Shown here piece by piece: positions 8,274 to 11,224 of a stretch of 64,000 nt of DNA. Numbering within the stretch: the stretch's first letter is position 1; each line of letters begins with the position of its first letter. Both the position numbers and the translations under genes were made by a program. The stretch lies in contig NZ_LMKB01000005.1 of assembly GCF_001421165.1 (NCBI RefSeq), forward strand, positions 1,346,827-1,410,826. Direction: 5' to 3'. This DNA comes from Frigoribacterium sp. Leaf8. Lineage in GTDB: Bacteria > Actinomycetota > Actinomycetes > Actinomycetales > Microbacteriaceae. A model generated the notes under the pieces. It had not been told where the DNA came from. It worked only from the letters and a program-made list of their open reading frames with translations, and searched no databases.

Positions 8274-8816
8274 TCAGTCTCGGGCGAGGATCGAGTAGAT
8301 GCGACGACGGGCCTCGTCGAGCACCGCCACCGCCTCGTCGACCTGCTCGGGCGAGCCCGTCCGGCCGACCTGCGCCGTGGCGCGGGCCAGCTCGACGCCG
8401 GCCTTGGGCAGGGCGCGGAACCGGTCGCCGGTGGCGGAGCGCTCGGGCTCCCACGGAGCCGACGGGTCGACCCCGGCGGCGGCGCGACCGGCCTCGGTGA
8501 GCGAGTAGACCTTGCGGCCGTCGGTCTCCTCCGCGGCGACGAGCCCCTCGTCGGAGAGCAACTGCAGGGTCGGGTACACGGACCCGGCGCTGGGCTTCCA
8601 GTCGCCGCCGCTGCGCTCGTCGATCTCGCGGATGATCTGGTAGCCGTGCATGGGGCGTTCGGCCAGCAGCGCGAGGATCGCGGCCCGCACCTCGCCCCGC
8701 GGGGCACGGGTGCCCTCGCGGCGGTCGAAGGTCGAGCGGAGCTGCTCCATGGCCTGCCACATGCCGTCGAGGCCGGTGCCGAAGCCGAAGGTGCCGGGTG
8801 CTGACGTGCTGCTCAT
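8274..8816 (-). CDS. PadR-family transcriptional regulator
   Basis: 180 residues from ATG 8816, with AAGGAG 7 nt upstream (the ORF continues upstream but without protein-like sequence). The winged helix spans about 37-110: RAAILALLAERPMHGYQIIREIDERS followed by SAGSVYPTLQLLSDEGLV and a wing YSLTEAGR, all PadR hallmarks. The C-terminal helices (about 125-178) should dimerise. A Gly/Phe-rich N-terminal extension of about 30 residues precedes the DNA-binding domain. It is the first gene of an operon with the ABC1 kinase; PadR proteins usually repress their own operon. Confidence 0.85.
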   Translation of the reverse strand: MSSTSAPGTFGFGTGLDGMWQAMEQLRSTFDRREGTRAPRGEVRAAILALLAERPMHGYQIIREIDERSGGDWKPSAGSVYPTLQLLSDEGLVAAEETDGRKVYSLTEAGRAAAGVDPSAPWEPERSATGDRFRALPKAGVELARATAQVGRTGSPEQVDEAVAVLDEARRRIYSILARD

Positions 8817-9202
8817 GGTGTTCTCCTTCTCGAGGGTGGAACGGGGTCGAACGATACCCGGACGATATACCCCCACGGGTGGCCCGTCAGGGCTGACGCC
8901 CAGGCAGGAGGCGCGGCCGCCGAGATCCCGAACGGTCCTGTTCTGGGGGTCCCCACGCACTCGTTCGGGGGGTTCGGGCGACCGGGCGAGGGTGGTTGAG
9001 TTCCATTCGTGGGTATGAACCCCCACCGACGGCGCGTTGCCGTCACCTCTCCGGCGTTCCCCGACGTCCGCCGGCGAGCCCTGCTGCCTCGGCGTTCCCC
9101 GACGTCCGCCGAGGCGGCAGGACCTCCGTCGTTCCCCGACGTCCGACGGAGTCGTACGTCCCTCGGTGACGGTCCGCGCCTCCGAGATCCCTGGAGTCCG
9201 CC
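8817..9202. other. 386-nt intergenic region between divergent genes
   Basis: No gene seen. From left to right it holds the PadR leader; an A/T-rich stretch with two similar boxes (about 8853-8873, CGATACCCGGACGATATACC) that may be the PadR promoter or operator; one copy of the dispersed motif (8907-8916); and the three-hairpin element (9047-9151) in the leader of the protease gene. A GGAG lies 7 nt before the protease ATG at 9203. Confidence 0.5.
9047..9151. repeat. Three tandem hairpins with an identical 14-nt loop
   Basis: GTTCCCCGACGTCC occurs at 9056-9069, 9094-9107 and 9131-9144 (38 and 37 nt apart). Each copy is flanked by a different but self-complementary stem: CCGGC/GCCGG plus CTC/GAG after one mismatch (unit 1); a 14-bp stem from 9080 to 9121 with one G-T pair, inner part GCCTCGGC/GCCGAGGC (unit 2); CTCCGTC/GACGGAG (unit 3). 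The loop is constant while the stems vary with compensation, which indicates selection on a folded DNA or RNA. It sits 52 nt before the protease start codon. Confidence 0.8.
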
Positions 9203-11224
9203 ATGCCCTCGTTCCCGACCCGCCGCCTCGCGGCGACCGCCGCCGCCGCGGCCCTGCTGTTCACCGTCCTGGTGACCGCCCCCGCCCAGGCCGCGACCCC
9301 GTCGCCCGCCCCGGCCGCCACCGTCCCCACCACGACGGCCGCCGCCTCGACGGCCACGTCGGGCGTCTCGGCCGACCTGTCCGGCGACATGATGACGGTG
9401 CCCGCGGCGCCCCTGCTGAGGGCCCAGACCGACGACGACGTGTCGCCGACGACCGGGGTGACGGACCACCCGGTGTACGTCAGCGTCGCGGCGGCGACGG
9501 CCGCGACCTCGGACGACTCCCCCACGCCTCCCGACGACGCCTCGATCCGGGCCGCCGTGACGCAGCTGCACGACTACTGGTGGGCGGAGTCGGGTCACAC
9601 CGTGAACGTGACGCTCGCCGGCATCGAGACCCGGTCGCTCGACCAGGCGTCGTGCGTCCCGGCCACGGTGCTCAACACGGTCCACACCTCGGCCTTCGGC
9701 GGACGGTTCGCCCGGTACGCGTGGGCCGGCACGAACGAGCACCTGATCGTCCTGAGCCGCGAGACCTGCGGGACGACGGCGACCGCGTTCGGCACGGTCG
9801 GCGGCGACGGCGGCGAGGTCTTCAGCTCGTACGGAGCGGGCAGCACGCTGGGCGTCCCCGTGCTGCTGCACGAGTTCGGCCACAACCTCGGCTTCGGCCA
9901 CGCCGGTGCCGGCATGTGCCGCAGCACGACGTCGTTCGACGGGGCCGCGAGCGACTACCGGTACGCCACGTCGACCGACTCCCCCGCCACCTGCCCCGTG
10001 CTCGAGTACGGGGACTTCCTCGACATCATGGGCTACTCGGTCTCGTCGTCCCGCCCCCACCTGTCGTCCGTCCAGCGGGTCCGCGCCGGTTACCTGACCG
10101 ACGTCACCACGCTCAGCGGGGCGGGCACGACCCGCCAGGTCACCGTCGCGTCGCTCGACGGTGCCGCGAAGGGCCGCGCCGTCAAGGTGGTCGACCCGGT
10201 CAGCGGTCAGGACTACTACGTCGAGTACCGCACCGCGACCGGGACGGACGCCACCAGCCCGGAGTTCGGCGGACGTTCTCCGTCCTGCGCCCTCGTCGGA
10301 TCGGGCTTCACGCGCTGCGCGCTCACCAGCGACAAGACGACCGGCAGCGTTCGGGTGCTCCGACCCCTCACCCTCGCGGGCAGCACGGTGTCGACCGTCG
10401 CCCTGGCGGTCGGCCTCGACGCCGGGCGCGACCCCAGCCGTCGCGACACGCACCTCGACGCGGGCGAGTCGTTCACCAGCGCGAACGGCGGGTTCACGGT
10501 GTCGGTCCGCTCGATGACCCCGTCGGGCGGAGCGGTCCTCGACGTGAGCCTCGCCGGGGGGTCCGCCAAGGTGCCCGCCTCCGCTCCGGCCCCGACCCTG
10601 TCGGCCCCGGCGCCCGCGACCGCACCCGCGACGACGACCAGTCGCCTGAGCGTCGACCGCACCCGCCAGACCCACGGCTCGAGCACCCCGATCACGACGA
10701 CCACCCAGGTCGTCGCGTCGGACGGCTCGGCCCCGAGCGGGACGGTGACGCTCCGGGACGGCACGGCCGTCGTCGGCAGCACGAAGGTCGGGTCCGACGG
10801 GCGCGCCACGGTGACCCTGCCGGGGACGACCGCGGCGGGCACCCACCAGCTGCGCGCCTCCTTCGTCCCTGCCACGACGACGCAGTCCGGCTCGGACTCG
10901 GCGGTCGTCGGAGTGACCGTCGACAAGGCCTCCTCGTCCAGCGCGCTGACCCGCGGGACGACGGCGATCACCAAGAACAAGGCGGCGACGGTCACGGTCA
11001 CGGTGTCGGCCCCCGGCGTCCCCCGCCCCACCGGCACCGTGACCGTGACCTCGGGCGGCAGGACCGTCGGCACCGCCACCGTCTCGGCCGACGGAGCAGG
11101 ACGCGTCACCGTGCCGGTGGGGACCTTCACCCGCGGGGGCACGTACGTCTTGTCCGCGTCGTACGCCGGGTCGGGCAACGTGTCGGCCAGCGTCTCGAAG
11201 CGGATGATCGTCGTCCTGCGCTGA
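9203..11224 (+). CDS. Secreted metzincin-type zinc metalloprotease with Ig-like repeats
   Basis: 673 residues. Signal peptide 1-30 (ending APAQA). A propeptide-like region leads to the catalytic domain with the zinc motif HEFGHNLGFGH (223-233; Glu224 catalytic) and the Met-turn DIMGYS (274-279), which places it among metzincins. Four cysteines in the catalytic region probably form disulfides. After a beta-rich region (about 310-470) come two Ig-like repeats (about 480-575 and 580-673) with the pattern SGTVTLRDGT...GRATVTLPG...G-x-H-x-L-x-A-x-F, typical adhesion or spacing modules. No membrane anchor, so it is secreted. Likely role: degradation of host or environmental protein (inference). Confidence 0.85.
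   Translation: MPSFPTRRLAATAAAAALLFTVLVTAPAQAATPSPAPAATVPTTTAAASTATSGVSADLSGDMMTVPAAPLLRAQTDDDVSPTTGVTDHPVYVSVAAATAATSDDSPTPPDDASIRAAVTQLHDYWWAESGHTVNVTLAGIETRSLDQASCVPATVLNTVHTSAFGGRFARYAWAGTNEHLIVLSRETCGTTATAFGTVGGDGGEVFSSYGAGSTLGVPVLLHEFGHNLGFGHAGAGMCRSTTSFDGAASDYRYATSTDSPATCPVLEYGDFLDIMGYSVSSSRPHLSSVQRVRAGYLTDVTTLSGAGTTRQVTVASLDGAAKGRAVKVVDPVSGQDYYVEYRTATGTDATSPEFGGRSPSCALVGSGFTRCALTSDKTTGSVRVLRPLTLAGSTVSTVALAVGLDAGRDPSRRDTHLDAGESFTSANGGFTVSVRSMTPSGGAVLDVSLAGGSAKVPASAPAPTLSAPAPATAPATTTSRLSVDRTRQTHGSSTPITTTTQVVASDGSAPSGTVTLRDGTAVVGSTKVGSDGRATVTLPGTTAAGTHQLRASFVPATTTQSGSDSAVVGVTVDKASSSSALTRGTTAITKNKAATVTVTVSAPGVPRPTGTVTVTSGGRTVGTATVSADGAGRVTVPVGTFTRGGTYVLSASYAGSGNVSASVSKRMIVVLR

Follow-up and report, generated by a model that had tools for sequence, protein, structure and literature searches.

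What kind of element stands directly in front of a protease gene of Frigoribacterium sp. Leaf8 was the question raised by a 64,000-nucleotide stretch of its genome (hereafter the window), in which a first-pass annotation had described three consecutive hairpins that share one 14-nt loop sequence, 37-38 nt apart, on unrelated stems. Exact copies of GTTCCCCGACGTCC were confirmed on the forward strand at positions 9056-9069, 9094-9107 and 9131-9144 (total span 9056-9144; spacings 38 and 37 nt), and an exact search of this genome returned these three copies and none elsewhere. With the constant closing CG/CG counted as paired, the uninterrupted stems are of 6, 15 and 8 bp, and the constant unpaired loop is accordingly 12 nt long (UUCCCCGACGUC). 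Hairpin 1 (9048-9077, forward strand) gains 2 additional pairs beyond a bulge, in the form UC-(bulge)-CCGGCG / CGCCGG-(bulge)-GA; hairpin 2 (9080-9121, forward strand) is closed by the 15-bp stem CCTGCTGCCTCGGCG / CGCCGAGGCGGCAGG, and hairpin 3 (9124-9151, forward strand) by the 8-bp stem CTCCGTCG / CGACGGAG, the spacers between them being 2 nt each (9078-9079 and 9122-9123). The RNA fold predicted for 9030-9205 reached -92.9 kcal/mol (z = -4.9), a stability attained by none of 200 dinucleotide shuffles. When the window was scanned for 12-mers repeated at a distance of 18-60 nt, with a stem of at least 5 bp flanking every copy, the array was the sole match, and resampling the window 100 times under a first-order Markov model gave none. 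The gene behind it (9203-11224, forward strand) is taken to encode a secreted metzincin-like protease with the motif HEFGHNLGFGH, a Met-turn-like DIMGYS, a signal-like stretch at the N-terminus and bacterial Ig-like domains; the catalytic motif and the signal for secretion were read by eye. Only Big_3_5 (Ig-like repeats) was found by Pfam, and no Pfam model matched the catalytic part at E 0.001.

The array occupies the same place in relatives. Arrays carrying this loop, here called type A, precede the orthologous protease gene in 7 of the 16 genomes of the genus, namely the present one (G000), G005 of the same species, G004, G007, G008, G010 and G013, and all type-A counts are thus based on seven close relatives, two of them from one species. 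The 14-mer was exact in 20 of the 21 loops, the exception being the third loop of G013. Two-sided changes that preserve pairing were seen at three stem pairs, one per hairpin: U-A to C-G in hairpin 1 (G007), G-C to A-U in hairpin 2 (G013) and U-A to G-C in hairpin 3 (G007). Hairpin 2 also showed G.U variants and a broken outermost pair in G008, and in G013 the loop and one pair of hairpin 3 were degenerate. This count and covariation score were reached by 7 of 500 shuffles, and slid controls gave 0 or 1 pair with a two-sided change. Variable columns among the seven genomes numbered 2 of 36 in loops, 11 of 62 in arm stems, 2 of 24 in outer paired positions and 17 of 34 in other unpaired positions. 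The loops were therefore more constant than the unpaired columns outside them (Fisher p = 3e-5), and the comparisons with arm-stem columns (p = 0.12) and with outer paired positions (p = 1) gave no significant difference. Third codon positions over part of the gene were 0.81-0.84 identical between G000 and G004, G008, G010 and G013, a comparison made without G007 owing to an alignment offset. A coding repeat was rejected, as the copies do not share a reading frame and the distance from the first to the second (38, 39 or 40 nt among the relatives) shifts by 1-2 nt.

A second version of the array was found before more divergent orthologues. The protease gene is present in 12 of the 16 genomes, with an identity of only 58-63% in 5 of these 12, and type-B arrays of 5, 5 and 4 hairpins stand at the same position in G011, G015 and G012, where the orthologues are 60-63% identical. 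Units such as CGCACGGTC-CCGAC-GACCGTGCG and CGCGTGGTC-CCGAC-GACCACGCG have variable, complementary stems and a loop that is mostly the 5-nt CCGAC (the 7-nt CCCCGAC in 2 of 14 units); a C-C mismatch interrupts the inner arm in 2 of 14 units (G011 hairpin 4 and G015 hairpin 5). Types A and B have the core CCCGACG in common. Kissing loops formed through the type-A palindrome GACGUC were rejected as a shared mechanism, this palindrome being missing from type-B loops. For covariation, 11 distinct units of the 14 were used, one duplicate and the two opening hairpins whose loop is of 7 nt having been set aside; 93.9% of their cells were paired, 8 cells showed two-sided changes, and the score of 0.335 compared with 0.207 in shuffles, of which 0 of 500 reached either the score or the two-sided cell count. 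Of the 500 shuffles, 137 attained the 3 pairs with two-sided changes and 127 the 9 further pair types. In all 10 genomes with an array, the leader folded more stably than each of its 200 dinucleotide shuffles (z -3.4 to -6.4). The first-pass annotation had proposed that the fold itself is selected and that relatives without conserved loop or pairing would speak against this; the compensatory changes in type A and the recurrence of the loop-plus-stem arrangement, in a second version, at the same place before the protease gene bear that proposal out.

Hairpin number is itself variable, leaders having 3, 4 or 5 and, in two genomes, one. The single hairpin of G001 has the loop ACCCGAC on 7 bp, and 11 of 200 shuffles of its leader fold as well; G003 retains one degenerate hairpin remnant, and 94 of 200 shuffles of its leader do so. 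As G003 falls together with G011 and G015, both of type B (support 100/100 in a protein tree of 13 rows, built without G012), either the array was lost in G003 or it expanded in its sisters. Orthologues from other genera (G019, G089, G076 and G079, the weaker matches L156, L157 and L159 lying outside this comparison) had no array by eye and none flagged by the generic scan described below. The array is a real, selected, RNA-like element, seen within the sequence searched in this genus alone.

Which strand is under selection can be read from the pairs that are not Watson-Crick. On the protease-sense strand these comprise 13 G.U and 3 A.C cells, all three of the latter at the outermost type-B pair, whereas the opposite strand would give 3 and 13. 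This excess of G.U over A.C favours selection on the protease-sense RNA, and with it an array that acts as protease-sense RNA.

Further copies were sought in the same genome and beyond. One-mismatch versions of the 14-mer occur at 10 further sites of the Leaf8 genome, each with at most 3 flanking stem pairs. The idea of a hairpin regulon elsewhere in this genome was rejected, as these 10 sites and the 18 occurrences of GGYCCCGACGRCC have 0-4 further stem pairs and lie within open frames of at least 218 codons in 0.8-kb stretches, long frames being common in such GC-rich DNA. A covariance model of the type-B units, applied to 150 first-look candidates per genome, gave 27.0-40.7 bits for the 14 units in the arrays of G011, G012 and G015, and the best non-array match among the matches listed (G014, 28.3 bits) exceeded the two units with 7-nt loops (27.0). 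The six non-array matches inspected were dismissed, having altered loops or mismatched outer arms within long open frames. A generic scan for one core held constant over three or more different arms, run over 266 partly overlapping sources (848 kb), flagged, apart from protease leaders, a single place, L128; this was rejected as a second array because it reads as a coding, alanine-rich repeat. The scan was less than exhaustive, the arrays of G007, G013 and G015 having been missed. The two-copy type-B pattern was present in 5 of 398 genomes of the family (the 3 Frigoribacterium leaders, G273 and G409), and a loose three-copy pattern in 19 of 150 genomes, G000 and G015 among them, the remainder mostly resembling repeats by eye. 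A second gene with such a leader was not seen in the sequence scanned. Pairing of the loops with the upstream 120 nt or with the first 150 nt of the gene was likewise rejected: with both regions tested in 12 genomes, more than 5% of shuffles did equally well in all but one of the 24 tests, the exception being the gene start of G001, with 4 of 200 shuffles equal.

Each leader repeats one loop on differing arms, and CCCGACG is retained in both types; the simplest reading is that a trans-acting factor recognises the loop. We therefore favour, at about even confidence, a cis-acting leader in the protease-sense RNA whose repeated loops would be docking sites for such a factor. The tandem hairpins would present one constant C-rich loop with the core CCCGACG; the stems would hold this loop up and be free to vary while pairing is kept, the loop being the part that is read. 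Several copies of one factor, an RNA-binding protein or, less likely, a small RNA, would dock on the repeated loops and alter, in one direction or the other, the translation or the lifetime of the protease mRNA. The suggestion of the first-pass annotation that the array binds a protein or an RNA is plausible. In type A, refolding of the leader could reach translation through a Shine-Dalgarno-like GGAG (9193-9196, forward strand), for which pairing with a CUCC some 23-27 nt ahead of the start codon is predicted, at a probability of at least 0.74 in 5 of 7 type-A genomes. Confidence in docking, and in the new RNA class proposed below, is lowered somewhat by the lack of a significant difference between type-A loop and arm-stem columns. 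That in the sequence scanned the array was seen with a single gene, unusual for the site of a general regulator, counts against docking, as do the protease-bearing genomes with at most one hairpin (2 of 12).

The same non-significant difference (p = 0.12) strengthens the main rival to docking, a purely structural 5' untranslated region in which stacked hairpins shield the mRNA from decay at its 5' end or set ribosome access and no partner for the loops exists. The great stability of the folds fits such a leader, as does the differing number of hairpins among species, as if bulk structure alone counted, and the Shine-Dalgarno sequence is predicted to lie within a local helix behind the array. 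A partner-free structure leaves unexplained, however, both the exact repetition of the loop on differing arms within each leader and the core common to types A and B, and we regard it as possible though rather doubtful.

A stand-alone small RNA, or a transcript processed into one, whose C-rich loops pair with other mRNAs or which acts as a sponge, is unlikely. Loops of this kind are typical of some actinobacterial small RNAs such as 6C RNA, but no terminator-like site, nor any intrinsic attenuator (a hairpin followed by a U run), was found in 8800-9300, and the interval from array to GGAG is 41 nt in Leaf8 (after hairpin 3) and 16 nt in G011 (after the last type-B hairpin). It also stays with the protease gene despite a changed upstream neighbour, and Rfam returned no match to it.

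An element acting as DNA, either an operator array or single-stranded hairpins as the first-pass annotation had also allowed, is more improbable still. Inverted repeats in front of a gene with a divergent PadR-family regulator invite this reading; a duplex operator, however, is expected to have constant arms and a free centre, the opposite of what the array shows, and the tolerance of G.U over A.C argues against it. The PadR gene is not the neighbour in type B, the array has a single place in the Leaf8 genome, and neither phage and plasmid collections (blastn, E 1e-5) nor viral contigs (exact two-copy type A) held a match. Least likely of all is a functionless array born of chance or recent tandem duplication, which would suit the two of 12 protease-bearing genomes without a proper array and its absence from the orthologues of the four other-genus genomes, but duplication alone would yield identical stems, whereas here the stems diverge, within a genome and from one genome to the next, with their complementarity kept, and no such repeat arose in the 100 resampled windows.

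Whether the element has a name was addressed by comparison with known families. No covariance-model match was returned by Rfam (release 15), and a search of 7 leader loci gave none up to E = 1; the only sub-threshold match, leuA-Halobacteria, fell on the opposite strand inside the gene at 20.6 bits, against 47.9 required. A literature search of titles and abstract openings, with few subscription journals covered, found no such element. The opinion of the first-pass annotation that no named element corresponds to the array is upheld by Rfam and these literature listings, the general kind, hairpins presenting repeated loops, being already known. CsrB/RsmZ-type arrays are stand-alone, terminator-ended small RNAs in which many hairpins with GGA loops present repeated protein sites; the present array resembles them in its many hairpins, one short loop motif and variable stems, but it precedes a gene, and its loops are UUCCCCGACGUC or CCGAC, with no GGA. 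The 6C RNA of Actinobacteria, which has two loops with runs of C and is not known to be tied to one protease gene, shares the C-rich hairpin loops and differs in that the array is so tied.

The nearest known arrangement is that of the ANTAR-target RNAs, which consist of two stem-loops with hexanucleotide loops (A at position 1, G at position 4) and a linker of 2-25 nt, and are known across Actinobacteria, many in untranslated regions (PMC8164766). Like the RNAs described there, the array sets one short invariant loop on successive hairpins whose stems vary more freely, and its spacers of 2 nt each fall within the linker range. The A1 and G4 of the hexaloop are, by that description, lacking in the array: the type-A loop is of 12 nt, or else a hexaloop CCCGAC, with C at position 1, on a lone C-G pair, and that of type B is mostly the 5-nt CCGAC. 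The array also has 3-5 copies, whereas ANTAR-target hairpins come, in the same description, in pairs. ANTAR proteins are encoded in 16 of the 16 genomes of the genus, array-less ones too, so that their presence is weak evidence. An adjacent pair of ANTAR genes occurs in 14 of the 16, being absent from G003 and G014; G003 has the protease, no array and no ANTAR pair, G001 one hairpin and the pair, and the pair is also present in G002, G006 and G009, which have no protease. With 12 informative genomes, this pair as the partner is only a lead. In Leaf8 it lies at C5:1333288-1334173 (L264), about 22 kb from the array and outside the window, and encodes proteins of about 250-270 aa each, which we take to be GAF-ANTAR-like.

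A good deal more tentatively than docking itself, we propose that the array stands for a new, actinobacterial class of cis-regulatory RNA. An RNA-binding protein, or else a small RNA, with specificity for the CCCGACG loop would dock cooperatively on an array of variable copy number in the leader of one secreted protease, the shortening of the loop from 12 to 5 nt between clades appearing as if RNA and partner had coevolved. Should a partner exist, array and partner would add a new RNA-recognition pair to those of Actinobacteria, a group in which to our knowledge few post-transcriptional regulators of secreted enzymes have been described; leaders with 1, 3, 4 and 5 hairpins would then form a natural series for grading the effect of binding-site number on expression. 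Constraint on the loop and constraint on the stem can be distinguished cleanly in this natural case, since each leader repeats its loop on stems that differ.

An outer stem, CGTCACC/GGTGACG, was predicted to enclose the three hairpins as a junction in the Leaf8 fold (9041-9047 / 9165-9171, forward strand), where a local 5' hairpin, GACGGC...GCCGTC (9028-9044), competes for the same conserved segment. Ensemble probabilities gave 0.88 for the outer stem in 2 of 7 type-A genomes and at least 0.83 for the local hairpin in 5 of 7; the minimum-energy fold alone places the outer stem in G008 too. The predicted stem is thus equivocal and, being favoured in only 2 of 7 type-A genomes, was rejected as a conserved feature. 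The two mutually exclusive pairings of one segment (9028-9047; 9165-9171) would be compatible with a conformational switch in type A.

Upstream of the array lies a conserved block (8940-9009, forward strand), comprising GTTCTGGGGG (8940-8949), GTTCGGGGGG (8963-8972) and GTTCCATTCG (9000-9009), which by its sequence may be a promoter, with no match to the sigma-70 consensus in the upstream region. GTTSTGGGG stands upstream of the protease gene in all 12 protease-bearing genomes of the genus, G001 and G003 included, and is followed at varying distance by GTTCCAT in 8, GTTCTAT in 1 and TTTGCAT in 3. GTTSTGGGG followed by GTTBCAT at 20-46 nt was found in 2 of 16 genomes, both times at the protease gene, the spacing or the letters differing elsewhere. 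CGTTSTGGGGG was rejected as the mark of a regulon, with 75 occurrences in 16 genomes against 66 for the reversed control; among 27 of its contexts no further leader was recognised, and several lay in long open frames. The GTTSTGGGG block, the array and the gene keep together while the upstream neighbour varies, being the divergent PadR-family gene (8274-8816, reverse strand) in the seven type-A genomes and another gene in the three type-B genomes. A conserved block before the PadR gene, GGTCGAACGATACCCGGACGATATACC (8840-8875), with repeated CGATA, is likely an autoregulatory PadR operator. GTTSTGGGG occurs twice in G011 and G012, and may be an activator site.
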